From assembly GCF_028748185.1 (NCBI RefSeq), contig NZ_CP118164.1, positions 3,559,814 to 3,623,813 on the forward strand: a DNA stretch of 64,000 nucleotides, in the 5' to 3' direction. The notes under the pieces are model-generated. The model was given only the letters and a program-made list of their open reading frames with translations, had not been told where the DNA came from and searched no databases. The position numbers and the translations under genes are program-made. The DNA is from Bremerella sp. P1 (GTDB lineage Bacteria > Planctomycetota > Planctomycetia > Pirellulales > Pirellulaceae). Below, in pieces: positions 23,429 to 38,166 of the stretch. How positions within the stretch are numbered: position 1 is the stretch's first letter; each line of letters opens with the position of its first letter.

Positions 23429-26400
23429 TTACCCTGCGCTACCGTCGGGCGCAATATACTGAATCTGGCTCAGTGCCGTCTGGTTGTTTTGCAGCTTTCC
23501 GATGGTCAGTTCCAGGTTATAAAACTCTTTGAGAAGCTGCTCGGACTTGCGCTCCAATCGATCGGTCATGGCCTTGATACGATCGGTGTTCAGTTCGGCA
23601 CGGGCCTGCAGTGTTTGGGCCCGGCTGACCAGCAACGAACTGCCGGCACCAGCAAATTGTTCCGTTAGATTGAAGACCTTATGAGCGAAACCGGTTGTTT
23701 CTCGAGTAAAGAAAGTCTCGACGGCTTCCGGATCGTCTTCAAATGCAGCTTTGAGTTTGGTCGAGTTGAGGCTTAACTTGCCGGTATCGTTGAACTCGAA
23801 GCCAAGCTGTTCAAGCGACTGGAACTTGCCGTTACCAACCAAGCGGGAAGTGATCAGGTTGCCAAGTTCGGTATCGACTCGCAGCGCTTCGTTCGATCCA
23901 AACAGAATCCCTGTCGAGTTGTCCGATTCATTGAAGAAGGTGTGTGCATCGAGCTTGTCACGCAAGGCATTGTACTGATCGACGAATTCCTGGGCAGCTT
24001 TGACCAGCGGTTCGTCCGAGACCTGTACGTTTACGTTGATGGCCGATTCGGACGGAGCATTGACGGTCAGCGAGACGCCTTCCAACACTTCACTGAATTT
24101 GTTCGTGGAGGACGAAGTCAGGATACCGGCGGCTGCATTACTGGCAGAGCCAAACAACAAGAGGGCATCCTGAGCCTCGACGATCTCATCAAAACGGAAT
24201 TGCGACTGACTCGAGTCGATGACGACTCGTCCTTTGCGCCCCGAAATCGTGCTGGTCAACGACATGCGAATTGGGTTCGTGCCAGAACCCGTATTGAGCG
24301 AACTTGCGGAAAGTCCGATGTCGGCATCGTTGATCTTGTCGATGACATCTTGCAGGGTTTCACCGGCTTCGATGTCGATGGTCGTGACTTCTGATCCTTC
24401 GATGACGGTTCGGGTAACGCCGTCCACTTCCTTTTCGACACCGGAGCCAAGTATTCCGAGACTTGCGGCCGTATTGATGCCACTGCCTTCGGTTACGGTC
24501 AGCGTGCCTGAGCCTGAGGTCTTGTCGATCAGGACGATGCCGTCACCACGATCGTTGATACGGGCTTCGACGTTCAGCGACAGCTCGGCGTTGATCTTAT
24601 CGATCAGGTCTCCGACCGTTTCAATCGAAGTATCGGTCAGGTCGAAGAGTCGCGTATTGCCTTCGCTGTTCTTGATCAGGAACTTGCCTCGCTCGATCCC
24701 TTCACCACCTTTGAGATCGTCGAGCTTGGTGTCTTCGTTGACGAACTGACGCCCGAGGTTGCCTGAGTTTACGGTCAAGCTGGTTGAGTCATGCTCGATA
24801 TTGAGCAGTTCGGCGCTGTTGGTTCCGTCGGCGTTGGCGACAATAAAGTTGCTGGTGAAAGAACCACTTGTTTCAGTCAGCGAAATGCCTGTTCCCGAGG
24901 CATTGACCTTGGCATTGATGGCCAGGCCAGATGCGTTGATCAATTCAATCACATCTTCGATCGTTTCGGCTGAGGACAAGTCGACATTTGCCGAACTGCC
25001 ACTGCGATCGGTAAGTGCGATCGTGCCAAGCGTGCCCAAGCCTTGGCCACCATTGAGCGTGGTTAGCAGGGTCGTTTTCAGGCCCGCCTGAAGTCTGCGA
25101 CTGGTAAGTGTGCCGCCTGAGGCCGTTCCGGTCAGTCCCAGGTCTTCTGCCGTGGAACTATTGTTGATACTGCTGACCGCGAATGTCCCGCCGTTGTCAG
25201 TCGACAGGTCGATCAATTCGATGCTATCGCCATCGTCGCTGATCTGCGCTCGCAGTTTCGAAGGATCGATGGCATTGATGGTGTCGATCAATTCGCCGAG
25301 CGTTTGTGGTTCCGAAGCTTCGCTCGCTTCACCGTTGTCGGTTGTCGCAACGATCGAGGCGTCGATGATCCGGTCGCCGGTAGCACTGGTAGGCTTGGAG
25401 GCAGTGAATGTCGCTGCGAAAGCCGTACTGCCATTGAGGGCCGTCACCACGTCATCCGCCGTCGTCTCGCCTTCCGCGATCCGAACAGTGATTGTTTTGG
25501 CATCTGCGTCGAATTCGACGACTTCATTTCCCTGGGTGACCGAACCATCGGCTACGTAGGAAATCTGATAGCCATCGTATTCGGCGCCTTTCACCTTGGC
25601 GGTCAGGTTGACTTGGCCATTGGCAGCGTCGTCAGGCGTGGTCGCCGAAGATAGCAGCACGCCGCCAGTGGTTACCGCCGTATCGGTAAGGTCCACCAAG
25701 CCGCTTCCATCGCTGCCGCTGCCGTTTGAGGCAGTGAACAAGGCACTTGCCGTCGGGTCACCATTGATGGCGTCAATGACGTTCGTGCCGGTCGAGTTGC
25801 CCGCATCAATCCGAACTGTAAGCGTTTTGTTGTTCGGGTCCGAGTCGTCGTAGGTGACCGTTTCCGCGCCTGCGGTGACACCTGCGTCGTCGACAAAGAC
25901 GATCGTAACGTCATCATAAGTTCCACCGGTACCGGCGGCGGTCAGGGTAATCGCAGCGTTCGGGTCGACCGAGGTTGTTGTGGCGGTGGCGGTACCGGTC
26001 GTGCCGGCGGTAGTTACGGAGTCTTTATTGGGGTCAATAATCCCATCGCCGAGGCCATTGTTCACGGTCTCGGCCGAGAAGTAAGTACTAGCAGTCACGT
26101 CGTTTTCCAACGCCGTGATGATGTCGGCTGCCGTTGTGTTGCCGGCGTCAATTTGAAAGGTCAACGTCTTGGCATTGCCGTCGAAGACGACCGTTTCACT
26201 GCCTTGAGTCACCGATCCATTGTCTTGGAAAATGATTTGGACGCCGTCGTAGGCGCTGCCATTTTGCACCGATGTGAAGCTGAGGCGGGCATCGCCTGAC
26301 TTCGCTGCGGCTGTCGCGAAGTCTTCAGGGGCAGCCGCTTTGCCCAGATCGATTTCGAGCGATGTTCCGTCACGTAAAGAAACCGAAAGATCTGCCGCGC

Positions 26401-27196
26401 TGCGGTTAACACTGATTCCGTTTCCATCGTTCAGTGAGGAAAGCAGCGTGTTGGCATGCAGGCTCAGTAGATCAGCACCCGTGGCCGTGTTCGACGCGGT
26501 GTTGATTCCGTCCAGACCCAGGTCGGCAGCCGTGCTGCTACTTCCGACGGATTGAACAATGAGATTCGAGGTCGTCAGACCAGTATTGTCGGTCAGTTTA
26601 ATGTGATCGCCGTCAACGGTTGCCGTGACCTGAATGTCATCGTTGTTGTTGATCGCATCCAGGACATCGTCGATCGTCTGGGCGTAGCTCAAGTCGACAG
26701 CAGCGTTACTTCCGCTGCGATCGGTGATGCGAATCTTGCCACGCTGGACGCCTTGTCCCCCGTTGAGTTGGTCGAGCGAGAGCCCGTCGTCGAGCCTTGG
26801 ACCGTGGCTGATCTGGATCTTTCCGGCAGACAGCGGCTGATCAAGGGAAGCAACGCCAGAGCTCAACAGTTGTTGCGATTGAGCCGTCCGGATGGGCGTA
26901 AACTGGTAGTTGCCCGTCTTGGGCGTACCGGTAACATTGGCCGAGAGAAACGTTGTATTGCTGCTGGTCGCTTTAGACGTGTTGAAGAGCGAGGTCTTCT
27001 CGAACTTCCTAGCCGTGAACTGAAAGCTCAAGACACTAGCTGTTAGTTCGGCAATCGCTGCTGCTTCGTCATTGATAGCCTCAGTGCGGGTGACCAGCAA
27101 ATCGCGCGGACGGGCTTCGATCGCAAGCAATTGCTTGACCGTTTCCGCGATGGGAATGCCCGTGATTAAACCAGTATTGGCCTGAATGCCTGCCAT
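23429..27196 (-). CDS. fliD: Filament cap protein FliD, greatly enlarged by repeats
   Basis: FliD caps the growing filament and folds flagellin subunits. The N-terminus (SGL-like GIQANTGLITGIPIAETVKQL) and C-terminus (helical, SEQLLKEFYNLELTIGKLQNNQT) are normal for FliD. The protein has 1255 residues rather than 450-700. The middle holds four flagellin-IN-type modules (about 143-228, 254-287 with 632-690, 714-800, 828-916) and three copies of another module of about 95 residues (303-397, 414-512, 526-620). The latter lie inside the second IN module. These same modules occur in FlgL, and the second type also in flagellin. Confidence 0.93.
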   Translation of the reverse strand: MAGIQANTGLITGIPIAETVKQLLAIEARPRDLLVTRTEAINDEAAAIAELTASVLSFQFTARKFEKTSLFNTSKATSSNTTFLSANVTGTPKTGNYQFTPIRTAQSQQLLSSGVASLDQPLSAGKIQISHGPRLDDGLSLDQLNGGQGVQRGKIRITDRSGSNAAVDLSYAQTIDDVLDAINNNDDIQVTATVDGDHIKLTDNTGLTTSNLIVQSVGSSSTAADLGLDGINTASNTATGADLLSLHANTLLSSLNDGNGISVNRSAADLSVSLRDGTSLEIDLGKAAAPEDFATAAAKSGDARLSFTSVQNGSAYDGVQIIFQDNGSVTQGSETVVFDGNAKTLTFQIDAGNTTAADIITALENDVTASTYFSAETVNNGLGDGIIDPNKDSVTTAGTTGTATATTTSVDPNAAITLTAAGTGGTYDDVTIVFVDDAGVTAGAETVTYDDSDPNNKTLTVRIDAGNSTGTNVIDAINGDPTASALFTASNGSGSDGSGLVDLTDTAVTTGGVLLSSATTPDDAANGQVNLTAKVKGAEYDGYQISYVADGSVTQGNEVVEFDADAKTITVRIAEGETTADDVVTALNGSTAFAATFTASKPTSATGDRIIDASIVATTDNGEASEASEPQTLGELIDTINAIDPSKLRAQISDDGDSIELIDLSTDNGGTFAVSSINNSSTAEDLGLTGTASGGTLTSRRLQAGLKTTLLTTLNGGQGLGTLGTIALTDRSGSSANVDLSSAETIEDVIELINASGLAINAKVNASGTGISLTETSGSFTSNFIVANADGTNSAELLNIEHDSTSLTVNSGNLGRQFVNEDTKLDDLKGGEGIERGKFLIKNSEGNTRLFDLTDTSIETVGDLIDKINAELSLNVEARINDRGDGIVLIDKTSGSGTLTVTEGSGINTAASLGILGSGVEKEVDGVTRTVIEGSEVTTIDIEAGETLQDVIDKINDADIGLSASSLNTGSGTNPIRMSLTSTISGRKGRVVIDSSQSQFRFDEIVEAQDALLLFGSASNAAAGILTSSSTNKFSEVLEGVSLTVNAPSESAINVNVQVSDEPLVKAAQEFVDQYNALRDKLDAHTFFNESDNSTGILFGSNEALRVDTELGNLITSRLVGNGKFQSLEQLGFEFNDTGKLSLNSTKLKAAFEDDPEAVETFFTRETTGFAHKVFNLTEQFAGAGSSLLVSRAQTLQARAELNTDRIKAMTDRLERKSEQLLKEFYNLELTIGKLQNNQTALSQIQYIAPDGSAG
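25304..26335 (-). repeat. Three tandem copies of the flagellar A module inserted in FliD
   Basis: Copies at 26006-26290, 25661-25957 and 25337-25621 each follow the pattern LTA-x-G-x-YDxVxIxFxD, VTxGxExVxYD, KTLTVxIxAGxTTAxxVIxAIN, FTA, DGSG, TTGG. The block interrupts a flagellin-IN module between EIDLGKA (ends about 26336) and TLGELIDTINA (begins about 25303), positions that are adjacent in the module's uninterrupted copies. The copies are diverged, not identical. Confidence 0.75.
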
Positions 27197-27342: not shown

Positions 27343-27374
27343 AAAAACGCCCGGCCAAATGGCCGGGCGTTTTC
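27343..27374 (-). terminator. Rho-independent terminator after flagellin
   Basis: A perfect stem AACGCCCGGCC with GGCCGGGCGTT, loop ATTT and flanking A and T runs lies 25 bp after the fliC stop. The flanking tracts make it potentially active on both strands. It implies that fliD and fliS need read-through or their own promoter. Confidence 0.9.
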
Positions 27375-27398: not shown

Positions 27399-30300
27399 TT
27401 AACGGAGCAGACTCAGGACGTTTTGTGGGTTCTGGTTTGCGATACCCAACACCGAGGTACCCGACTGGACCAGAATCTGCGAACGAGTCAGCTTGGCCGA
27501 TTCAGCGGCGAAGTCCGCGTCACGAATCGAGCTTTCTGCTTCGGTCAGGTTGGCCAGCGTGTCGTTCAAGGTGTAGATGTTCGATTCCAGAGTCGTTTTC
27601 TGGAATGCACCCAAGCGACCGCGAAGCTGGGTAACAACCGTGATCGTTTCGTCAACGATCTTGGCAGCAGCACCAACGTCCGAGGTCAGGCTCTTGGAAC
27701 CACCGGAACGCAGCTCGAACAGACGACCGCTCACACCACCCAGGGTCGCCGTGCTGACGCTCTGGATGCCGAGGCGGGCTTGCTGGTTGCTGACCACGTC
27801 TGGGCCCAGTTGGAACAAGGCACCACCACCCGAGATCTGGAAGCTCAGATTCGTGTTGTCACCAACCGTAGCACTCAGCGAGAAGCTCAAGTCGAGCGAC
27901 GAGGTGTTGATCGAAGCCTTCAGACCATCACCGACGGCTTGGATACCGTTGATGCGGACGTCGACGTCGGTACCTTCCGAACGGTCAGCAGCGGCACCGC
28001 TTTCGTTCGTCAGGTGGAACGTTCCGCTGAGTGCTTTCACACTCACGAAGCTGTCCGAACCGTATCGAGTTGCCTGGAAGGTCAAACCAGTGTTTTCAAG
28101 ATCTGAGTTGCCCTGAAGTGCGGCACCTTGGACACTACCACTGTCGACAACACCACCGGTCAGCGTTGCCGTGTCGTCAACGGTAACAACGCCAGCACCG
28201 GTTCCGCCAGCGGTAGCATTGAACAGAGCTGCGATGTCGGCATCGTAGTTTGCATCACCGGAATCAAAGATGTCTTCCAGGTCAGCAGCCGTCGTCACAC
28301 CTTCTTCGATGAAGAACGTCAGCGTCTTCGATGCGGCGTCGTATTCAGCACGTTCGTCTGTACCAGCGGTCACACCACCATCGGCGACGAACTGGATCGT
28401 GACGTCGTCGTAGTCGGCACCACCATTGACGGCCGTCAGCGTCAGCTGAGCGTTTTCGCCATTGACTGCCGTGGTCGTACCGGATGCTTGAGCATCTTCG
28501 AGGTCCGTTCCACTGGTAGCGAAAGTGATGTCTTCGGTGGTGACAGCCAGGACGCCCGAGCCATCGCTTTCACCAACGTTCGTCACGCTGATGCCACGAT
28601 CGGCCAGGTAGGAAGCCGTGTTGGAAGCTTCCGTCGCGTCATCAATGAACTGGCTAGGATCATCAAAGAAGGCGATCAGATCATTTGCGGTGGTCGTGAT
28701 CGTTCCATTTTCGTCGGTGGCCAGGTTGATGATCAACGTGCCTTCCGAGGAAACGCCACCCGTGGTAGCCGTCGGAATGTCGAGATCAGCAATCGTGATC
28801 GCGTCGGACCCGTCGCTCGAACCAAAGTTCGATGCTTCAAAGTACTGGCTCACATAGGCGTCATCGTTGATGGCCGACAGCACGTCTTCCGCAGTGGACA
28901 CACCATCTTCGATGTTGATCGTGATGGTCTTGTTCTCTTTGTCGAGAACAGCGTATTCATTGCCACCACCGGTAACTGAAGCGTTATCGACGAAGCTAAT
29001 CGAATAGCCGTCGAATTCGGTGCCCTTCAGCTTGGCACTGATTTCAAAGCTGCCGTTGGCATCGTCATTTTGGATAACCGAGGTCGAGTAACCTTCGACG
29101 CGAGGATCGGTCGAGGTGTCGATGCTCAGGCCTGTACCTGGGTTGGAAACAAATCGAATGTTTGGATTCGATTCAGGAGCCAGGAACTGCAGAGCGTTGT
29201 TCTGTTCGGCGACACCGCTGTAAGCAACGTCGGTGAACTCAGAGACAACACCATACCCGTTGTTGCCGGCTTGCAATGAAGCGGTGACCTTGTCATTGCC
29301 CGAAGCGTTGTTGATCGCTTCGATAACGTCGTTGGCCGTTGCGATAACATCGCCACCGTCAATGCCACCTGAGGTTGCCGTGCCGTAGGTACCAGTGAAG
29401 GTCACAGCTCCCGCACCCGTACCGTTAGTTTCGACCAAGGCGGCGGTGAACAAGGCAGCGGTAGCGGCGTTGTTGGAGGTTGCGGTCACTGCACCACTAT
29501 CGGCGACAGCGATCGTACCCGAACCATCGCTACCAGTAACGTTGGCAGCAGCCGTGAACAAACCGCCGACCGTGGCGTCACCATTCAATGCAGTGATCAC
29601 TTGGTTCGCGGTCGTCACGCCAGCTTCGATGCCGACCGTGATGATCACGTTATCAGGATCGCTGTTGTCGTAGGCGACCGTTTCACCACCAGCGGTAACG
29701 GTGTCGGTGAAGTTGATCGTGACACCGTCGTTGGCCAGGCCGGTCGTGTCCGAGGTCAAGGTGAACAGCGAGTTGCCACCCGAGTTCGTACCAATAACCA
29801 CGGTTGGGGTGTCAGCGAGCGTGTGCGTATTGTTGATCGCGGCGACGATGTCGGCAGCGGTCGACGCAGCGTTCTTCGTAATCGTCAGCGTTTTGGCGTC
29901 AGCATCGAAGACAGCAGTTTCTTCGCCGGTGTTAGCACCGTCGGCAAAGATAACGCTGACGTCATTGAAGTCGGCGCCCAACTGATCAGCAGTGATCGTA
30001 AAGTCGTTGTCCGTGCCAGCCGTATCGACGGTGACGGATGCGGCTTCGTAATCACGAACGCCGAGAGCAACTTCGATCTGAGCAGCGTTTTCGCCAACCG
30101 GAGCGGTGTAGGTTGCGCTGGTCGTGCTCGAGGTGCCTTTGGTGTATTTGATGCGAACATCACCAGCATCGAAGCCGGCTTCGTTGGCGGTGATCAGGAC
30201 GTCGTTGTTTTCGCCATAGCTCGAAGCGACCAGCGTACCCTTGGTGGCAGCCGTTTCAACGATGGCTTCCACGCCGGTTGCGTCCGACACCAGGTTGACG

Positions 30301-30968
30301 GCCGAAGCGACTTCTTCGATGGTCGAACCCTTGGCGAAGTTGAATGCTTCGGTACCGTTGCCGCCGCCGATTTGCAGCACGAGATCTTCAGCGATGGCTC
30401 CGAAGTTGTAGTTGAGCTGACCGCGGGTCGCTTGCTTGACGACGTTGACCGAGACGCCGATTTCGCTGAACGAACCGAAGTTGGCTTGGTCGACGCGGAG
30501 GCCTTCGATCGACTTGGTATCCACACCGTTGGTGATGAAGTCGAGGTTGCCGTCCAGCAGACGCTTGCCTTGGAACGAAGTGATTTGTGCGATACGGTCG
30601 ATGGCTTCCAGCGACGAGTCGATCTGCAGCTGGTTAGCAGCGATCTGCTCTTCACTCAAGGCACCCGTATTGGCGGCTTCCGAAGTCAAGCCACGGATGT
30701 CATTGAGCAGCTGGCTCACCTGGCCAAGTGCACTGTCTGCGGTTGCGATCAGCTGGTTGGCACGTTCACTATTGGTGATGGCCTTTTCCACGCTGATGAT
30801 GTCGCTACGCAGACCTTCACTGGCGATCAAACCAGCCGGATCGTCTTTACCACGGTTGATCCGGAGACCGGTGCTCAAACGACCCAGAGCGGTTTGCAAG
30901 TCGTTGTTCGAACGCGATAACGTGTTCTGAGCGATGAGTGAGCTGACGTTAGTATTGATTCGGGTCAT
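27399..30968 (-). CDS. fliC: Flagellin with a very large central repeat region
   Basis: The D0/D1 parts are canonical. The N-terminus is MTRINTNVSSLIAQNTLSRS with STGLRINRGKDDPAGL and ANQLIATADSALGQV. The C-terminus has AFQKTTLESNIYTLNDTLANLTEAESSIRDADFA and ends NPQNVLSLLR. The protein has 1189 residues against the usual 270-600. Residues about 190-1000 form the surface-exposed part and hold four copies of the A module (322-395, 401-497, 640-735, 840-938) plus a C-terminal-half copy (742-830). The region is rich in Thr, Gly, Asp and Ala with almost no Cys. It has a strong AGGAGG site 11 bp upstream, its own terminator, and the csrA and fliW genes directly upstream. Confidence 0.96.
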   Translation of the reverse strand: MTRINTNVSSLIAQNTLSRSNNDLQTALGRLSTGLRINRGKDDPAGLIASEGLRSDIISVEKAITNSERANQLIATADSALGQVSQLLNDIRGLTSEAANTGALSEEQIAANQLQIDSSLEAIDRIAQITSFQGKRLLDGNLDFITNGVDTKSIEGLRVDQANFGSFSEIGVSVNVVKQATRGQLNYNFGAIAEDLVLQIGGGNGTEAFNFAKGSTIEEVASAVNLVSDATGVEAIVETAATKGTLVASSYGENNDVLITANEAGFDAGDVRIKYTKGTSSTTSATYTAPVGENAAQIEVALGVRDYEAASVTVDTAGTDNDFTITADQLGADFNDVSVIFADGANTGEETAVFDADAKTLTITKNAASTAADIVAAINNTHTLADTPTVVIGTNSGGNSLFTLTSDTTGLANDGVTINFTDTVTAGGETVAYDNSDPDNVIITVGIEAGVTTANQVITALNGDATVGGLFTAAANVTGSDGSGTIAVADSGAVTATSNNAATAALFTAALVETNGTGAGAVTFTGTYGTATSGGIDGGDVIATANDVIEAINNASGNDKVTASLQAGNNGYGVVSEFTDVAYSGVAEQNNALQFLAPESNPNIRFVSNPGTGLSIDTSTDPRVEGYSTSVIQNDDANGSFEISAKLKGTEFDGYSISFVDNASVTGGGNEYAVLDKENKTITINIEDGVSTAEDVLSAINDDAYVSQYFEASNFGSSDGSDAITIADLDIPTATTGGVSSEGTLIINLATDENGTITTTANDLIAFFDDPSQFIDDATEASNTASYLADRGISVTNVGESDGSGVLAVTTEDITFATSGTDLEDAQASGTTTAVNGENAQLTLTAVNGGADYDDVTIQFVADGGVTAGTDERAEYDAASKTLTFFIEEGVTTAADLEDIFDSGDANYDADIAALFNATAGGTGAGVVTVDDTATLTGGVVDSGSVQGAALQGNSDLENTGLTFQATRYGSDSFVSVKALSGTFHLTNESGAAADRSEGTDVDVRINGIQAVGDGLKASINTSSLDLSFSLSATVGDNTNLSFQISGGGALFQLGPDVVSNQQARLGIQSVSTATLGGVSGRLFELRSGGSKSLTSDVGAAAKIVDETITVVTQLRGRLGAFQKTTLESNIYTLNDTLANLTEAESSIRDADFAAESAKLTRSQILVQSGTSVLGIANQNPQNVLSLLR
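28155..30005 (-). repeat. Four diverged copies of the flagellar A module in flagellin
   Basis: Copies at 29784-30005, 29478-29768, 28764-29051 and 28155-28451 share LTA-G-xxxDxVxIxF, VTxGxE, YD, KTLTI, AGxTTAxxVIxAIN and, in most, DGSG then TxGG. A half copy at about 28479-28745 keeps LATDENGTITTTANDLI and ESDGSGVLAV. Copies 1 and 2 are nearly contiguous; about 140 and 105 unrelated residues separate the others. Confidence 0.75.
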
Positions 30969-31661
30969 TTTGAGACACCCCTCCTAGTTGAGGACTACGT
31001 TTGGTTCCAACCGAGACGGGGAGTCGTGACTCAGCTGGTGCGGCTGCAAAACGCAGCCCCGAAATATGGGAACGAACGATTGTCAATCTCGAGTTTTGGC
31101 CACGGTTGCTTTCTACGAACGTCGTAGCCAGTTTAGGCCTGCCCCCGCTTAACGCTTGTTATCCGAGCTAGCTACGTGGTCGGCGCAGCTTCCGCGAGGA
31201 TTCCTAAACGTCTAAATGGGAAGATCGTCACACTTTGACACTAGCTTGAGATAAAGACATTCTTTTTCATTGACGTATGAGTTGACGGAAGTTGTTTCCC
31301 TTGCTCATTCCGCATCGTCAGATTAGACGTTACGACCGGACCATGAAGTTGGTGGGTTCCGAGAGATAAGCGATTGGCAGAAGCCCATTCGTAGGGGCCA
31401 GATTGGCCGTGTTTTCCAGCGGTTTGCGCATGCGTAGCGTGTAACCGATCGATAGGACAACCTACAGAACGAAAGTCAGGCTACGCGCGAAACTATTTCG
31501 CCGAAAATCCGCTGGGAGAGGAATCTGTGCGGTACCGGCGTGCGGCTTGCCGAAGATTCATGCAGCGCAAGGTGGGATTTGCTGCGCGGACACGTGTTCA
31601 GGGAGAGGGATCAGGAGGTCGCCTGGCTGACGGATAGACGACCTCCGATGCAAGGCCGCAA
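30969..31661 (-). other. Flagellin leader and upstream region
   Basis: About 690 bp hold no convincing gene; a 68-codon plus-strand frame at the right end is the antisense of csrA. Within it are the flagellin ribosome-binding site and hairpin listed separately, a second hairpin GGCTGC/GCAGCC with a 5-nt loop near 31043-31059, and an 8-bp inverted repeat (GGAGGTCG at 31614, CGACCTCC at 31639) shortly after csrA. No convincing sigma-28, sigma-54 or sigma-70 promoter was found for fliC by eye. Confidence 0.5.
30980..30993 (-). promoter_or_regulatory. Flagellin ribosome-binding site in a small hairpin, candidate CsrA site
   Basis: On the RNA strand CCTC-AACTAG-GAGG forms a four-pair stem. The AGGAGG Shine-Dalgarno straddles loop and stem and contains the GGA core that CsrA recognises. 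A second GGA lies 20 nt upstream in GGTTGGAACC. In Bacillus subtilis CsrA blocks flagellin translation at two such sites and FliW relieves it; the neighbouring csrA and fliW make the same control likely here (inference). Confidence 0.5.
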
Positions 31662-31886
31662 TTATTTGCGACCCTTTTTCATCATGGCCGTGTCTTCCGG
31701 CTGCATGCCGGAGGCCTGCATGTTTTCACGCTTGATCGCCTCGTAGACTTCCTGGCGATGCACAGGAATGTCTTGAGGGGCAGCAATGCCCAAGCGAACT
31801 TTATCTCCACGAATGTCCACAATCGTGATGACAATATTGTCGCCGATCATGATGCTTTCGTCACGGTGCCTCGAGAGTACCAGCAT
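31662..31886 (-). CDS. csrA: Carbon storage regulator CsrA (second copy, flagellar)
   Basis: This 74-residue protein has the full CsrA core: MLVLSRHRDESIMIGD, DIRGDKVRLGIAAPQDIPVHRQEVYEAIKREN, followed by a Met- and Lys-rich tail. A strong GGAAGGAG precedes the ATG by 8 bp. It lies between fliW (214 bp upstream) and flagellin on the same strand, the classical arrangement for CsrA control of flagellin translation. The tail and several core residues differ from the first copy at 5.1 kb. Confidence 0.95.
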   Translation of the reverse strand: MLVLSRHRDESIMIGDNIVITIVDIRGDKVRLGIAAPQDIPVHRQEVYEAIKRENMQASGMQPEDTAMMKKGRK

Positions 31887-32100
31887 CTCTGGCTCCTTCC
31901 TACTTTTATTTCAATCAGGGTATTGGGCATTTGGTGCTTGTAAGATTCCGTCCAGCCCCGAATGACTGCACTGAATGCAGTCGCTCGCCAGCAATGATAG
32001 CAGTGCATTGCTATGACTCGACGTGTTGAGTATCGGACACCTAGAGATACGGATTCACTTTTCAATCCGTGGATACTGTTCTGACGGCAAGTCCGGTTGT

Positions 32101-32541
32101 TCACGCGCTGCGACGCAGAGGGATTGTTTCAGTCGCAATGACGTGCCGCAGTGGCTGTTCGTCGGTGGTAATGACCTGACGGCCGATCTGAAGCGAGAGA
32201 TTTACCAGAAGAGGAGCTCGGAGATTGACGGTAACCAAGCTGTCCTCTCGACTTACGACGACCAGCACAAAGGTTTCCATGCCGGCATCGATTTGCAGCG
32301 AACTGGCTTGCTCGGGGCTGATACGCACCTTGTAAGACGGTATGTATCGCCGTGGGCTAACCACTGCGAAGGCGAGTCCTGGATCTTCCAGCGACTGCAA
32401 CCAGCCAACCGACTCGTTGGATTCATCTGCCAGAATGGCCCACTTCGTATGATCGTCGAATCCGATCATACCGTTTGGGAAGGTGATGATCTCATCTTGG
32501 CGGATATCGAGCTGGCCGAAGCGAGTGGTTGTAAATTCCAT
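32101..32541 (-). CDS. fliW: Flagellar assembly factor FliW
   Basis: FliW binds flagellin and, when flagellin has been exported, binds CsrA and removes it from the flagellin mRNA. The 146 residues show the family pattern FPNGMIGFDDHTKWAIL, WLQSLEDPGLAFAVVSP, and VTVNLRAPLLVNLSLQIGRQVI. The frame extends upstream to 32640, but the ATG at 32541 starts the conserved domain. It sits between flgL and csrA. Confidence 0.93.
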   Translation of the reverse strand: MEFTTTRFGQLDIRQDEIITFPNGMIGFDDHTKWAILADESNESVGWLQSLEDPGLAFAVVSPRRYIPSYKVRISPEQASSLQIDAGMETFVLVVVSREDSLVTVNLRAPLLVNLSLQIGRQVITTDEQPLRHVIATETIPLRRSA

Positions 32542-32583
32542 AGCCCCTGGCGTCCTTACACAGTCTTGTCGGCTTAATAGTAG

Positions 32584-32604
32584 AGGGCGCGAGGAAAACG
32601 CCCT
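32584..32604 (-). repeat. Inverted repeat in the flgL-fliW spacer
   Basis: AGGGCG and CGCCCT form a six-pair GC-rich stem around a 9-nt loop in the 117-bp gap after flgL. No T-run follows on the minus strand, so it is not a clear terminator; it may form in the fliW leader. Confidence 0.35.
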
Positions 32605-32658
32605 ATTCTCTCTATCGACCGATTGCCCGGAGGAATCCATAGAATCGTCAAAGTCGGA

Positions 32659-35600
32659 CTAGATAAAATCCAACAAGGTCAATTGATAGAGCTGGCCGGT
32701 CATCTGTAGCGAGGCCTGAAACGAAGCCTGCTTAGCGGTCATTTCCGAAATGGCCTGGACGATATCGACATCGATTTCCAACGACAGATTCGTTTTCAGT
32801 TCCAGGATTTCATCTTCACCACGCGCTTTGAGCACATCCACATGCTGATCACGAGCACCCAGTGCCCCGCGGGTAAAGCTGAGCCGTTCAATGTCTTCTT
32901 CCAGTAGTCCAGCGATTCGCGAGACCTCCTGGACGTTTTTGGCTGCGATCGCGTCCTTCAGTCGCAGCAGCGAATTGAAGATGCCCTTGGTCTCCTGGGG
33001 ATTCACATTGCGACCTTGAAGTACTTCCGGACTTCCGCCATCGGTCGTTCCGACGGTTCCTGTCGCGTTGATGATACCACTACCAGAGTTGTTCAGATCA
33101 TTGGCGAAGTTCAACTTCGCGTCGAAATCGCCTTGTTGGTCGATCGCGGCAATGACCTGGTTGGCCGTCGTCACGCCAGCTTCAATCTGAACGGTCAGTG
33201 TTTTGGTTGCTGAATTGAACACCGCACTCGGGACACCGCCCGACAGAGAGTCTTCAAAGACGATCTGCACGTCGTTCATGCGCGTGCCCGGGATTTTAGC
33301 CACCAGGGAGAACGCCGTATTGAGGTTGTCGGGCGAAGCAAACGAGATGTCGGCCGTCGCTGCGGCTGAATCGGCTACCGGCGTTCCGCCATTGGTCGTT
33401 GCTAGAACACCGGTTTGCGTGATCAGCCCGGTCCCTGCATTGGTTGCATCTTCTGCCGCGTAAAGTTCCGCTGAAAATGTCCCCTCGGCTTGGATCGCGG
33501 CGATTACCGTGTTTGCGGAAGTCAGGGTCGGATCGACATCGATCGTCAGTTTTTGTGTCGCTGCATCGAACGTGACAAGGGCCTGATTGCCGCTGGCGGC
33601 GCTGTTAACAATCTCGACTTGAATATTGTTGTAGCTGGTACCAGGGTTCTGGGCGGTCAGCTTAAAGGCATTATTGACGTCGTCTGGTTCTGCAAATTGA
33701 ACGATTGCCGTGGCTGGCGTAGCATCGGGCGAATCAGAAACGGTTGCTTCGATTTGACCAGGGGGAATCAGCCCCAAATCAACGCCGGCATGACTAAGCA
33801 CGCCTTGTGATACCGTGAGACGGCCAAACCCAGGCGGGTTGTCGTCGATCAATTCGATGCCATTGCCGAACTCAGAGAGCCGTGCAACCAAAGCATTGGG
33901 ACCATCCAGATTGTCTGGATGATTATTGATCAGGTTCAACACGTCCCCGATGGTTTTGGCCGTTGAAAGCTCGATCTCCAGTTCGACGCCGTCATTACGG
34001 GTGATCGTCAAGTCCGTGCCATCGGTACCGGTGACACCCCGACCGAAGTTGAGTTCCGAAAGTCGTGTTTCCGTAGTGAAGCTTCGCAGGCCTAATTGTG
34101 TGGCCGTTTGCCCACCATTTTCTCCGATCGAGAAGTCGCCACCACTTACGCTCGAACGGACATTGATGCCGTTGCCATTAGCGTTGATTTCGGCGACCAG
34201 GCCGGCACCACTTCCATTGAAGACGTTCAACAGGTCCTCAACGGTTTCTACTTCGCTGAAATCGAGGGTCGTAGTGACCGTGCCATTTTGGATTTGGATC
34301 CCTGATTCGCTGTCGAATGTCGTGCCTGATCCGCCGGTCGTTTTGCCAATGACCGAAGTACTGACCACGCCGCTGGCGGTCAGGAATTCGGCCGTTGTAT
34401 CCTTCGCATCAATGCTGGCCGTAAAGTCAGCTGAGAACGCCGCGTTGTTGTTTAGGGCCCGGATCAGGTCGTCCGCAGTGGTCGTGCCAGAGGCGACCTG
34501 GACATAGTAGGCGTCGACATCGCCGCCGGTGTTTCCTGTGTTGCCGATCGTGCCGGCACTTGCCACGTTGACCGTTGCTGCCAGATTGAACGACTCGCCA
34601 TTCCCGTTATCGCTAGTGACGGAAAAGGTTCCATCGGCGGCAATCGCGTTGATAATCGACTGAACTGTCGTTTCGTTGTCGTCGTCGATCTGAATCGTCA
34701 GCCGACGTGTTGTGCCGTCGTCCGAATAGCTCGCGGTCGCGGCGTCGCCTAGATTGTTCGAGGCGTCGATCACGATTTCAACGTTGTTAAACAGATCGCC
34801 GGCTTGATTCGCGATCAGCGTCAGATCGTTGCCGCCACCCACCAGCGGCAGCGAGGCTCTGGCTTTCACGGCCTGGGTGGTAACCGTAGCGGTTGACGAG
34901 GTGCCATCGTTGGCGGCGGTCACGGCACTCGCAGGGTTGAAGCCTTCCCCCGTGTTCGCCTTGCCGACGGCAAAACGACCATCGATGGCAAACGCATTCA
35001 TTAATGTCTGGAGGCTTGTCTCGTCGGTGTCGTCGACCTGGACTGTGATGGTCGGGACACCGTCCACCAATGTAGTTGGGCCAATAACGGCCGAGTCGCC
35101 AATGTCATTGGAAGCATCGATGATGATTTCCACGCCATCCAGGCTGCCGTCGGTCGAATTTGCTGTGAGCAGCAGGTCGTTGTCGGCTCCGTCCAGGTTC
35201 AGCGTTGCTTGAGGACGTAGTAGATCGGAACCCTTGGTAACGATTTCATTGCCACGGGTGATACCGGTACCTGCTTTGAGCAGGTTGTGGTCGACCAACT
35301 GAATCTTGGTGCCGTTGAGCGACTCACCGTTGGCATTGGCTTTGATGATGATGTCGTTGTTCGAGCCAGGGTATTCAATGATCGTATTGGACTTGGTACC
35401 GAGCAGGTTCGAGACCTTCGTGGTCAGCGTGACCCGTGGGTTCAGGTCGGCCCCAACGATCGGATTGGTAAGATTGCCGTCTGTTTTGAGAATGCCCAAT
35501 TGTGCGGCGACGCGGCTTCCGCCCAACTCGCGGATGGTGAGGTTGCCACCGCCGGCGTCGTCGATGTCGACAATCAGGCCGGTATCGCTGATCCGGGCCG

Positions 35601-36396
35601 TCACTTTACGACCCGCAGGCGGGTTCGCCTCGATCAAGCGAACCACGTCGTTAAGCGTGTTCGCCTTGCTGATATCGATGGTAACCGGCGGCGCAAGACC
35701 ATCCGAAATCTGGAAACTTCCCTTCTGAATCCCCTTCCCTCCCCGGAGGTCGGAGAGCTTAGTGGAGCCAGTTACGATGGGGTTCAGGTCGCCGATGCCT
35801 TTGACTTGTTGGCTGATCGCACCAAACGCGTCGTGACCATTAACGGTCGTATCGAAGAGCAAGTCGATGTCGGCAAAACTTTGCAGGCCGGTTGTATTGC
35901 CGAGGTATTCGATCAGGCCGCTATCGAGCGTCTGAAACGGTTTCGTCGTGGTGTTTGACCCTGCGAAGAGATAACGTCCGCGGAACTGCTGATTGGCCAG
36001 GTCCATCAGCTGTTGAATAGCACGCTCGACTTGCTCGCCGGCTGCGGCAAGTTCGGTATCTGAAAAGGTTGTATCAGCGAGCCGAACGGCCAAACCTTTG
36101 ACGTCGTTCAGCGTTGTTTGAACGTTGGCCAGCGCTACGTCGGTTGCCGAAAGGTACGACTGGCTCGTGATCAGGTTGGTTTGGATCTGCGTTTTTTGTT
36201 CCAGCAGCGACTGAAGCGTGACGCCACGGATGGCAGCAGGCGCATCATCACTCAGAGAAAGCACACGACGTCCGGTACTCAACTGCGTTTGCAAGCGCAG
36301 CAAGTCGAGCTGGTCAGCCGACATCTGATTGGTGAGACGCTGCGACAGTAGGTAGTCGCTCGTTCGACCTGTGGGTACCGGGATAATACGTGTCAT
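32659..36396 (-). CDS. flgL: Hook-filament junction protein FlgL, greatly enlarged by repeats
   Basis: The ends match FlgL: N-terminal RTSDYLLSQRLTNQMSADQLDLLRLQTQLSTGRRVLSLSDDAPAA and QQFRGRYLFAGSNT; C-terminal ISEMTAKQASFQASLQMTGQLYQLTLLDFI. The protein has 1245 residues against about 300-500. Between residues 200 and 1125 it has three flagellin-IN-type modules (about 212-303, 697-770, 778-876) and five A modules (345-393 with 627-665, 404-490, 522-612, 909-1002, 1026-1122). The first A copy seems split by the next two. It lies 69 bp after flgK, in the same order as in many flagellar operons. Confidence 0.93.
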   Translation of the reverse strand: MTRIIPVPTGRTSDYLLSQRLTNQMSADQLDLLRLQTQLSTGRRVLSLSDDAPAAIRGVTLQSLLEQKTQIQTNLITSQSYLSATDVALANVQTTLNDVKGLAVRLADTTFSDTELAAAGEQVERAIQQLMDLANQQFRGRYLFAGSNTTTKPFQTLDSGLIEYLGNTTGLQSFADIDLLFDTTVNGHDAFGAISQQVKGIGDLNPIVTGSTKLSDLRGGKGIQKGSFQISDGLAPPVTIDISKANTLNDVVRLIEANPPAGRKVTARISDTGLIVDIDDAGGGNLTIRELGGSRVAAQLGILKTDGNLTNPIVGADLNPRVTLTTKVSNLLGTKSNTIIEYPGSNNDIIIKANANGESLNGTKIQLVDHNLLKAGTGITRGNEIVTKGSDLLRPQATLNLDGADNDLLLTANSTDGSLDGVEIIIDASNDIGDSAVIGPTTLVDGVPTITVQVDDTDETSLQTLMNAFAIDGRFAVGKANTGEGFNPASAVTAANDGTSSTATVTTQAVKARASLPLVGGGNDLTLIANQAGDLFNNVEIVIDASNNLGDAATASYSDDGTTRRLTIQIDDDNETTVQSIINAIAADGTFSVTSDNGNGESFNLAATVNVASAGTIGNTGNTGGDVDAYYVQVASGTTTADDLIRALNNNAAFSADFTASIDAKDTTAEFLTASGVVSTSVIGKTTGGSGTTFDSESGIQIQNGTVTTTLDFSEVETVEDLLNVFNGSGAGLVAEINANGNGINVRSSVSGGDFSIGENGGQTATQLGLRSFTTETRLSELNFGRGVTGTDGTDLTITRNDGVELEIELSTAKTIGDVLNLINNHPDNLDGPNALVARLSEFGNGIELIDDNPPGFGRLTVSQGVLSHAGVDLGLIPPGQIEATVSDSPDATPATAIVQFAEPDDVNNAFKLTAQNPGTSYNNIQVEIVNSAASGNQALVTFDAATQKLTIDVDPTLTSANTVIAAIQAEGTFSAELYAAEDATNAGTGLITQTGVLATTNGGTPVADSAAATADISFASPDNLNTAFSLVAKIPGTRMNDVQIVFEDSLSGGVPSAVFNSATKTLTVQIEAGVTTANQVIAAIDQQGDFDAKLNFANDLNNSGSGIINATGTVGTTDGGSPEVLQGRNVNPQETKGIFNSLLRLKDAIAAKNVQEVSRIAGLLEEDIERLSFTRGALGARDQHVDVLKARGEDEILELKTNLSLEIDVDIVQAISEMTAKQASFQASLQMTGQLYQLTLLDFI
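33031..33672 (-). repeat. Two A modules in the C-terminal half of FlgL
   Basis: Copies at 33391-33672 and 33031-33321 share NAFxLxAxxPGTxxNxxQxxxxxS, FxxATxKLTxxV, TxANxVIAAI and GTGLI or GSGII, then TTxGG. They are the most alike pair in this protein. Confidence 0.7.
34402..35364 (-). repeat. Nested A modules in the middle of FlgL
   Basis: An N-terminal half module (35218-35364, NDIIIKANANGESLNGTKIQLVD) is followed by two complete copies (34927-35187 and 34561-34833). Then comes a C-terminal half (34402-34518) with VQVASGTTTADDLIRALNN. The two halves together would make one complete module, so the inner pair looks inserted into it. Confidence 0.6.
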
Positions 36397-36465: not shown

Positions 36466-38166
36466 TTACAGGTTGACCAAAACCTCTAATAGTTCATCCA
36501 GCGTTGCAATCATTCGGGATGATGCCTGGAACTGACGTTGAAAAGTGATCATTCGCACCGCTTCTTCGTCTAAGTTCACTCCGCTTACGCCGAGCTTCTG
36601 TCCTTCGAGCGTATCTTTGAATACGCGAAAACCTTCGGTGATTCCCTTCGTGACCGCGGCGGTCTGGGCGACTCCACCGACCAGGTCTTTATAAAATGCC
36701 GTGACAGTCGTCCCACTGAATGAGTCGAGTGCTCGTTCAGAGAATGATGCCAAAGCCACCGCGTTGTCCGTATCTTTGCCGATGCCGGAACTACTAGCCG
36801 CGAACTTGGAAGGATCTCCACTAACCATCTCGTTCACGCCGAGGTCGGTCGCGGACGATCCTGTGAAGAACGTACCCACACCCAGGGCTGCCAATACGCC
36901 GCTGGTATCATCCGCGAAAGCAAACTCGATGTTCGGCTGATCGGCATTGATTTGAAGCTGACCCTCTAGGCTGATGGTTGCCGAGAGTCCATCAATATCG
37001 TCCAGTGCCGCTCGGAGATCTTCGAGTGAAGTGTCTTCGTTGGTGCCGTTGAGTTGGATGAAGATATCGTGCGTTTCGGTAACGCCTGTTTGTCGATTGA
37101 GCAGCTTGACTTGGAACGAACCGTTCTCAGGCGTAAACGGAAGCCCCACCTGGTCGAGGGCATCATCCCATTGCTCGGCACTGACAAAGTGTTCGGATTC
37201 AATGGATTCGTAGCCGGTCAGACCCTGACCACTGCTGAAGACCTTGTTGAACTCAAAGGCGAACGACTTGGCAAAGTTGTCGAGCTGTCCGAGAAAGTCC
37301 CCGAGAATATGATCGCGTGAATTGACCAGGCCGGCTAGTTTGCCGGTGTCGGTTTGTAGGGGAGATTCAAAGTCGACGATCTTGATGTCGACAAAGTTGG
37401 CTCCATCGCGTGGTTCTTCATCGGCGTAAACTTGCCGGGCAATCCCGTCGGTGACCAGGTATTCGCCACCGGCGAAAACAGATACCGAGCCGTTTTCCTG
37501 CTCGACGGCTCGGATGCCTATCAGCTCGGAAAGTTCGGTTAGTTTCCGTTGACGTTGATCGCGGAGACCCACGGCATCACTCTTGGTGATGCCCCCTTCC
37601 ATGGTCGTGATCTTTTTGTTGACTTCGGCGATGTCGGTCAGCAGTCCATTGATGGTCCCGGCCGCGTCGCGGATTCGATCGTTTGTATCCAGTTGTACCT
37701 GGCGAACACGCTGGTACAGTCGAGAAATATCGTCCGCTAGCGTTTGACCACGAAGAATGGTCAAGTTGCGAACGCCCAAGTCTTCCGGCTGGTTGAGGAT
37801 ATCGTTGATCGAACCAAAGAAGTTATTGAGGGAAGTGCTGAGATCGGTATCGCTCAGTTCGCCGATCAGGGCATCCAGTTGGGTAAATGTGTTCTCTTCG
37901 GCCTCTCCCTTGGCCAGATCACTTCGTGAACCACGTAGCCGTTCTTCCAGGAATTGATCGACCTGCTGAACGATCGCCTCGACTCGGACGCCCAGCCCCA
38001 GACGCAAGTTGCCAATCGCCTGCGTCGGCGCAGGCGTATAGATCACGCGCTGGCGAAGGTAGTCCGGCGTGTTGACGTTGGCGATGTTGTTGCCCGTGAC
38101 TTGCAGTCCGACCTGGGCTGCTTGCAGGGCATTGTTCGCTTGTTGTAGTGAGCTAAATAGAGACAT
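36466..38166 (-). CDS. flgK: Hook-filament junction protein FlgK
   Basis: FlgK forms the first junction ring on the hook. The 566 residues have the rod/hook-type N-terminus SLFSSLQQANNALQAAQVG followed by TGNNIANVNTPDYLRQRV. The C-terminus has SGVNLDEEAVRMITFQRQFQASSRMI. The middle contains a FlgK-specific insert around residues 325-455 (SFQVKLLNRQTG to GVLAALGVGTFFTG), loosely like one flagellin-IN module. No A modules were seen, so FlgK alone of the hook-filament proteins here keeps a normal size. Confidence 0.95.
   Translation of the reverse strand: MSLFSSLQQANNALQAAQVGLQVTGNNIANVNTPDYLRQRVIYTPAPTQAIGNLRLGLGVRVEAIVQQVDQFLEERLRGSRSDLAKGEAEENTFTQLDALIGELSDTDLSTSLNNFFGSINDILNQPEDLGVRNLTILRGQTLADDISRLYQRVRQVQLDTNDRIRDAAGTINGLLTDIAEVNKKITTMEGGITKSDAVGLRDQRQRKLTELSELIGIRAVEQENGSVSVFAGGEYLVTDGIARQVYADEEPRDGANFVDIKIVDFESPLQTDTGKLAGLVNSRDHILGDFLGQLDNFAKSFAFEFNKVFSSGQGLTGYESIESEHFVSAEQWDDALDQVGLPFTPENGSFQVKLLNRQTGVTETHDIFIQLNGTNEDTSLEDLRAALDDIDGLSATISLEGQLQINADQPNIEFAFADDTSGVLAALGVGTFFTGSSATDLGVNEMVSGDPSKFAASSSGIGKDTDNAVALASFSERALDSFSGTTVTAFYKDLVGGVAQTAAVTKGITEGFRVFKDTLEGQKLGVSGVNLDEEAVRMITFQRQFQASSRMIATLDELLEVLVNL

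Follow-up and report, generated by a model that had tools for sequence, protein, structure and literature searches.

In many bacteria the conserved core of flagellin alone makes a working filament. Giant flagellins with repeats, among which that of Blastopirellula marina is listed, are described as making thick filaments (PMC6248924). The available text on Pseudomonas aeruginosa PAO1 states that this strain needs a network of outer-domain contacts for swimming in viscous media and reports similar predicted outer domains for some Planctomycetota (PMC10256154). FlgL and FlgK, the two junction proteins, are described as sharing an outer domain, D2, for which quasi-homotypic contacts were proposed (PMC6155364). 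In Campylobacter, an outer domain of the cap protein FliD adjoins FlgL while the cap sits on the junction. Here we analyzed a 64,000-nt stretch of Bremerella sp. P1 (Pirellulales; contig NZ_CP118164.1, positions 3,559,814 to 3,623,813; hereafter the window, with coordinates counted from its first nucleotide), which contains a flagellar cluster. By computational means throughout (sequence comparison and predicted structures), we found that flagellin (FliC), FliD and FlgL of this cluster share a tandem module of about 101 residues that was not detected in FlgK. The four genes concerned, given as open reading frames (ORFs), are:

27399..30968, minus strand: fliC, giant flagellin, 1189 aa, four module copies (Flagellin_N 2.9e-27, Flagellin_C 9.6e-21)
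23429..27196, minus strand: fliD, filament cap, 1255 aa, three module and four IN-type copies (FliD_N 4.5e-13, FliD_C 3.6e-36)
32659..36396, minus strand: flgL, hook-filament junction protein, 1245 aa, four module and three IN-type copies (TIGR02550 2.4e-51)
36466..38166, minus strand: flgK, the other junction protein, 566 aa, without the module and serving as internal control (FlgK_D1 1.1e-49)

The helical ends of FliC and both terminal families of FliD score above their cut-offs, and FlgL is identified by TIGR02550 (175.3 bits vs. a cut-off of 127.2) and by the adjoining flgK. PF00669 has two matches in the window's genome, FliC and FlgL. ORF lengths run from stop to stop and thus include some residues before the start codon.

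A hidden Markov model (HMM) built from two FliC copies matched the remaining two FliC copies (28.3 and 34.8 bits), three copies in FliD (46.1, 66.0, and 63.7 bits) and two in FlgL (21.4 and 35.2 bits). The best scores in a control with 200 shuffles per protein were 10.0 bits for FliD, 8.4 for FlgL and 5.9 for FliC. Iteration converged on 11 full copies of about 101 positions, four in FliC, three in FliD and four in FlgL, accompanied by two partial ones. A search of the window's genome at E 0.01 gave 12 matches, none of them outside fliC, fliD and flgL; the twelfth is the FlgL half copy. FlgK has no module at threshold; the best score of the whole protein with the two-copy HMM was 0.2 bits. In each of the three proteins the module stands in tandem in the variable middle, between the conserved ends:

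29757..30014, minus strand: FliC module copy 1, aa 319-404 (HMM, 83.9 bits after iteration)
29463..29777, minus strand: FliC module copy 2, aa 398-502 (HMM; missing from the 3-module allele of sister species)
28749..29060, minus strand: FliC module copy 3, aa 637-740 (seed copy and HMM)
28509..28712, minus strand: FliC half copy (C-terminal half), about aa 753-820 (weak HMM match, 5.0 bits)
28137..28457, minus strand: FliC module copy 4, aa 838-944 (seed copy and HMM)
25988..26296, minus strand: FliD module copy 1, aa 301-403 (HMM)
25646..25963, minus strand: FliD module copy 2, aa 412-517 (HMM; fold predicted for aa 409-520)
25316..25624, minus strand: FliD module copy 3, aa 525-627 (HMM)
34888..35187, minus strand: FlgL module copy 1, aa 404-503 (HMM)
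34537..34836, minus strand: FlgL module copy 2, aa 521-620 (HMM)
34354..34503, minus strand: FlgL half copy, aa 632-681 (profile positions 45-94 of 101, E 2.1e-5)
33373..33678, minus strand: FlgL module copy 3, aa 907-1008 (HMM)
33022..33324, minus strand: FlgL module copy 4, aa 1025-1125 (HMM)

A preliminary description of this DNA had claimed one module common to filament, cap and one junction protein, and absent from FlgK. This is borne out, the module being in addition widespread in the order, and an HMM from FliC copies does match FliD and FlgL, the test on which that claim had been staked. Its tally of at least 12 copies (four and a half in flagellin, three in FliD, about five in FlgL) becomes 11 full and two partial ones, and its coordinates, 27399-36396, omit FliD (23429-27196). 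The module explains, as had been supposed, why the proteins are oversized, although for part of the extra length only: FliD and FlgL also carry a second module.

Protein lengths were compared across operons by independent contrasts on a FlgK tree, after L038 and L071 (the latter with a short FlgK) had been dropped. FlgL length is correlated with FliC length (r = 0.53, p = 0.0022, 29 operons with the three genes), also without the genus sisters (r = 0.64, p = 0.0015, 21 operons). The corresponding contrasts of FlgK with FliC were -0.17 and -0.20 (not significant), and that of FlgK with FlgL was -0.18. Rank correlations left out the eight genus sisters, the near-duplicates L038, L073 and L077, and the distant loci L082-L086. 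Since FlgL size changed along with flagellin size, the module seems to tile the outside of the structure. Of the evidence for matched outer layers, this size link is the strongest, and it concerns junction and filament, not the cap.

The fold of FliD copy 2 (aa 409-520) was predicted by AlphaFold2 from an alignment of 99 copies from all three proteins, with a predicted local distance difference test score (pLDDT) of 84.4. The model contains strands at 8-12, 22-28, 38-42, and 49-55, a helix at 62-71 and strands at 79-83 and 98-100, and the module is accordingly modeled, in prediction, as one compact, independently folding small domain. For full-length FliC (alignment of 22 flagellins), the mean pLDDT of 66 and predicted template modeling score (pTM) of 0.31 make the domain arrangement unusable. 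This model nevertheless repeats a succession of four strands, one helix and one strand at residues 323-392, 402-474, 641-714, and 842-920, with a confidence of mostly 71-91 in copies 2-4 and a poor one of about 51-72 in copy 1. The half copy was modeled as a strand (744-749), two helices (761-769 and 778-791) and a strand (794-797). Structure matches were obtained for full-length FliC as a whole, and their VIA rows cover the conserved ends. Thus the structural check proposed in the preliminary description has been run: FliD copy 2 is predicted to fold compactly, and its fold agrees with those predicted for FliC copies 2-4 on a different alignment.

We read the module as a structural outer-layer tile of the Pirellulales flagellum, matched between junction and filament, and assign this reading a probability of roughly 0.6. 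The module would build the outer layer (D2 and beyond), its exposure at the surface being expected from the known build of FliC, FliD and FlgL, and its likely structural job would be to thicken the filament and let neighboring outer domains touch. FlgL is the ring on which flagellin stacks, and FlgK lies on the hook side of the junction. FlgL would present an outer layer of the same kind and size as that of the flagellin above it; we infer this match because FlgL and FliC sizes move together and those of FlgK and FliD do not. By analogy with outer-domain networks elsewhere, the Pirellulales tile would make the outer-domain contacts of filament and junction, and both these contacts and a thicker filament are presumed on that basis.

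Several observations weigh against this reading. Contacts between modules are supposed; the domain arrangement of the FliC model is unreliable (pTM 0.31), and the single-copy prediction covers FliD copy 2. Among 22 operons, FliD length tracks neither FliC (-0.05) nor FlgL (0.00); size matching therefore stops short of the cap, and the common surface layer envisaged in the preliminary description is supported, indirectly, for FlgL and FliC but not for FliD. No copy was detectable in 21 of 67 FliC and 20 of 53 FliD proteins. Finally, giant non-flagellar proteins carry the module too, so it is not specific to the flagellum in the order.

To place these points, the distribution of the module has to be considered, with the reservation that its profile was built from flagellar copies, so flagellar copies are found best. 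Matches at E 0.001, not sorted by gene, occurred in 32 of 40 genomes, the window's own included. In an order sample of 147 genomes at least 90% complete (module at E 1e-4, FliD_C at E 0.001), the module was found in 95 and FliD_C in 91 (90 over its cut-off): 90 genomes had both, one FliD only, five the module only and 51 neither. The module was therefore present in 90 of the 91 genomes with FliD_C vs. 5 of the 56 without it (Fisher p = 1.7e-32, kinship not corrected). The best module copy of the FliD-only genome, G276, scored 1.9e-4. In a phylum sample the module was found in 9 of 195 genomes. Among proteins of the fetched loci it was detected in 0 of 40 FlgK, 35 of 37 FlgL, 46 of 67 FliC and 33 of 53 FliD, counts that are not population frequencies, since the loci had been retrieved with flagellin or with the module itself. 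A 260-residue flagellin-like ORF of L069 was dropped from these counts, and five re-fetched duplicate loci (L030, L097, L098, L100, and L101) were kept out of the trees, length comparisons and counts. Where a frameshift split a protein, or one end only was recognized, the pieces were neither joined nor counted; the flagellin of G331 (L153:8847-10926, same as L072) consists of three separate ORFs.

In the five genomes with the module but without FliD_C, the top-scoring copies lie in ORFs of 5,658-8,010 aa and weaker ones in further ORFs of 1,718 to 6,782 residues. A 10,025-residue ORF of G318 (L148:3128-19999, L149:3-13202) contains 19 module copies in the two stretches read with a deep profile. 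The part scanned also has subtilase, P and PPC domains, and the FlgL-type profile scores best at 18 of the 19 places. In G268, a 6,861-residue ORF carries two module copies, and the scan of a part of it showed GEVED and Calx-beta domains. The occurrence of the module in these giant proteins means that it is not tied to flagellar export. It could then be a generic planctomycete cell-surface repeat, recruited to the flagellum as a bulk or binding domain (for a ligand, a glycan or calcium) without matched contacts. The FlgL-type copies of the G318 ORF and the weaker copies in giant ORFs of five genomes without FliD speak for such an origin. Nevertheless, the window's genome has no match outside fliC, fliD and flgL, the size of FlgL varies with that of FliC, and FlgK is spared; we regard this explanation as possible, if on the unlikely side.

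A link with phage tails had also been proposed from the sequence, and here the signals are weak and converge on domain II of tail sheath proteins (PF17481, PHROG 279). With a loose limit of E 1, phrog_279 matched 11 of 99 module copies (best 2e-4) and PF17481 matched three (best 9.9e-4). The curated score of PF17481, 31.4, was reached by no module copy, the top being 22.3 bits for an FlgL copy of G001; HMA, presumably unrelated, matched 12 of the 99. Four PF17481 hits at 1e-3, all below the cut-off, were obtained in 198 genomes of the class: FlgL copy 4 of the sister genome G001 (6.8e-4), a 511-residue relative of annotated phage tail sheath proteins, a 530-residue protein and a 6,898-residue ORF. 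When the module profile was searched against the PDB, sheath chain 8kee came second (E 0.019), after OspA. Profile alignment with hhalign gave E 0.0029 for Mu-type and 0.01 for phiKX-type domain II, at probabilities of 4-11%, the Mu-type alignment covering 21 columns; six other sheath parts gave 0.068-0.91, eight reversed-profile runs 0.21-0.99, and the two sheath families against each other 0.015.

At the level of structure, Foldseek found no match to the module in the PDB at E 0.001. In BFVD it matched five phage proteins (E 2.9e-5 to 9.8e-4; template modeling score 0.52-0.64 by query length), of which three are uncharacterized, one is nameless and one is named for fibronectin III; a tail sheath protein appeared there only at E 2.9. 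The supposed phage likeness is partly supported by structure and by weak profile signals, whereas a direct tblastn search of the module against phages found nothing. Kinship with sheath domain II, judged from such profile similarities, is plausible though unproven. According to the relevant part of a review of sheath proteins, such extra domains sit away from the tube, and the conserved core formed by both ends of flagellin somewhat resembles sheath proteins (PMC9230969). A broader account would have the tile share its source with the sheath accessory domain, span junction, filament and cap, require matching FlgL and flagellin tiles for docking, and be traded with giant surface proteins. We consider that account doubtful.

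Common descent of the copies themselves could be questioned, since acidic, Thr/Gly/Ala-rich beta repeats of biased composition may come to look alike by convergence. Bias terms are indeed large (111.0 bits for FliC, 78.8 for FliD, 17.0 for FlgL), and families such as HMA match weakly. However, shuffles of the same composition stayed at or below 10.0 bits vs. up to 66 for real copies outside FliC, the copies keep one register over about 100 residues, and the predicted folds of FliD copy 2 and FliC copies 2-4 agree, which makes convergence very improbable.

The history of the copies was followed by identity and by trees. For each copy of the window, the nearest sequence is its positional counterpart in the same gene of another species (identity 0.90-0.96), vs. 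a best identity of 0.49 between copies within the window's genome (FliC copy 2 with FliD copy 2). In a quick tree of 109 copies, without eight genus or near-duplicate loci and without copies filled in fewer than 80 columns, the gene label changed 11 times vs. a shuffled mean of 49.1, a difference helped by near-copies; hence the copies group by gene in the tree that the preliminary description had called for. In this tree FliC copy 2 was placed inside the FliD copies, a nesting that was not recovered when 73 copies of FliC and FliD from 17 chosen loci (FlgL copies and copies with fewer than 75 columns left out) were used for a careful tree, and a single FliD clade was not rejected (approximately unbiased test, p-AU 0.228). 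The alignment, of about 100 columns, does not resolve the deep order of the copies. FlgL copies 1-2 and 3-4 are alike (0.46 and 0.44), which is compatible with local duplication. Judging from these identities, the multiplication of the copies is old, and each copy is now passed on within its own gene and at its own position, with no exchange seen among the three genes, contrary to the earlier suggestion that these co-evolve by recombination. Concerted evolution, in which ongoing recombination homogenizes the copies among the three genes, is hardly credible in view of these same-position matches, tree labels and the careful tree, even though FliD copy 2 is nearer to FliC copies 2 and 4 (0.49 and 0.48) than to its own neighbors (0.42 and 0.38) and FliC copy 2 fell among FliD copies in the quick tree.

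Within flagellin, exchange is probable. Five of the eight genus sisters have a 3-module flagellin (1,078-1,081 aa) and three a 4-module one (1,193-1,194 aa); FliD has three copies in all eight, and FlgL four in seven and five in the eighth. The core of the window's FliC is identical to that of L089/L094 (1.00), vs. 0.82-0.83 with 118 gap positions for its middle, and the FlgL and FliD middles are 0.89-0.94 identical to theirs. L096/L092 are more distant when judged by FlgK, FlgL and FliD; with them the middle of the window's FliC shares 0.90 identity without any gap, and with L096 its core shares 0.98. The drop in identity along FliC lies between about residues 280 and 800, and the FliD and FlgL middles show at most two gap positions within the genus. 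Flagellin is therefore a mosaic, with a core identical between close species and a module array from another allele. This is the pattern expected of replacement of a central cassette, probably by homologous recombination. In flagellin alone, the module array would pass from one species to another as an allelic cassette while the core around it stays almost unchanged, with phages, predators or surfaces perhaps exerting selection on the exposed part. A second flagellin of Blastopirellula marina, with four modules (L029:9977-13570), is encoded away from the flgK-flgL-fliC-fliD cluster of that species; relative to the window's FliC, its middle is 0.73 identical vs. 0.69 for the flagellin of the cluster, and its core 0.84 vs. 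0.86.

The second module, missed by the preliminary description, is of the IN type, has about 92 residues and is common to FliD (four copies) and FlgL (three). An HMM from three FliD copies matched FlgL at E 1.6e-13, 4.8e-9, and 1.3e-4:

26504..26782, minus strand: FliD IN-type copy 1, aa 139-231 (seed)
25133..25399, minus strand: FliD IN-type copy 2, aa 600-688 (HMM)
24797..25081, minus strand: FliD IN-type copy 3, aa 706-800 (seed)
24452..24730, minus strand: FliD IN-type copy 4, aa 823-915 (seed)
35491..35763, minus strand: FlgL IN-type copy 1, aa 212-302 (HMM, 46.7 bits, E 1.6e-13)
34087..34356, minus strand: FlgL IN-type copy 2, aa 681-770 (HMM, 18.1 bits, E 1.3e-4)
33769..34068, minus strand: FlgL IN-type copy 3, aa 777-876 (HMM, 32.4 bits, E 4.8e-9)

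With hhalign, the IN-type and the 101-residue modules align over 51 columns (E 0.0015, probability 16%). The second half of the larger module (strand pair, helix with AIN, strand) resembles Flagellin_IN (PF07196), which matched 5 of the 99 copies (best E 0.0097), none of them reaching its curated score of 22.7; the module differs in being about twice as long as this 55-position motif. The sole PF07196 match over the cut-off in the window's genome, FliC 198-250, lies outside the modules, and FlgK has a weak match below it (E 0.013).

The minus-strand cluster comprises flgI, flgJ-like, flgN-like, flgK, flgL, fliW, csrA, fliC, fliD and fliS. The names fliW, flgJ and flgI follow best family matches below curated cut-offs; csrA and the flgN-like gene we take to be such from their sequence and place. 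Between flgL and fliC lie csrA and fliW (31662-31886 and 32101-32640, minus strand), a placement resembling the CsrA-FliW control of flagellin known from other bacteria. An inverted repeat of 13 pairs with a GC-rich stem and T-rich tail (27344-27373), between fliC and fliD, is possibly a terminator that would allow fliC to be expressed separately from fliD. Searching with FliC gave 58 named loci, mostly from Pirellulales and other planctomycetes, with Blastopirellula marina among the closest.

The outer-layer tile bears on what flagellar outer domains are for. Filament, cap and FlgL carry one domain that FlgK lacks, and FlgL size has followed that of the filament protein; this predicts a need for matching outer layers on either side of the junction. 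Natural allele pairs are available with three or four modules on an identical core. If the sheath link were true, flagella and phage tails would have a surface tile in common. Repeated outer domains in giant flagellins are already known, including that of Blastopirellula. Three points appear to be new, and our literature search found no paper on them: a single module is common to filament, cap and FlgL while FlgK lacks it, this module recurs in giant surface proteins, and FlgL and FliC are linked in size. The DE regions of Oceanospirillales (Thomson et al., 2018; PMC6248924) are, by description, also a tandem outer region enlarging flagellin between conserved ends, with copies reported as vertically inherited like those found here. 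As described in the available text of that paper, they belong to flagellins, without reported sharing with FliD or FlgL. The D2 domain of FlgL and FlgK (PMC6155364), as described, is likewise one outer domain in two neighboring axial proteins; in Bremerella, by contrast, the module of FlgL recurs in FliC and FliD, and FlgK is without it.

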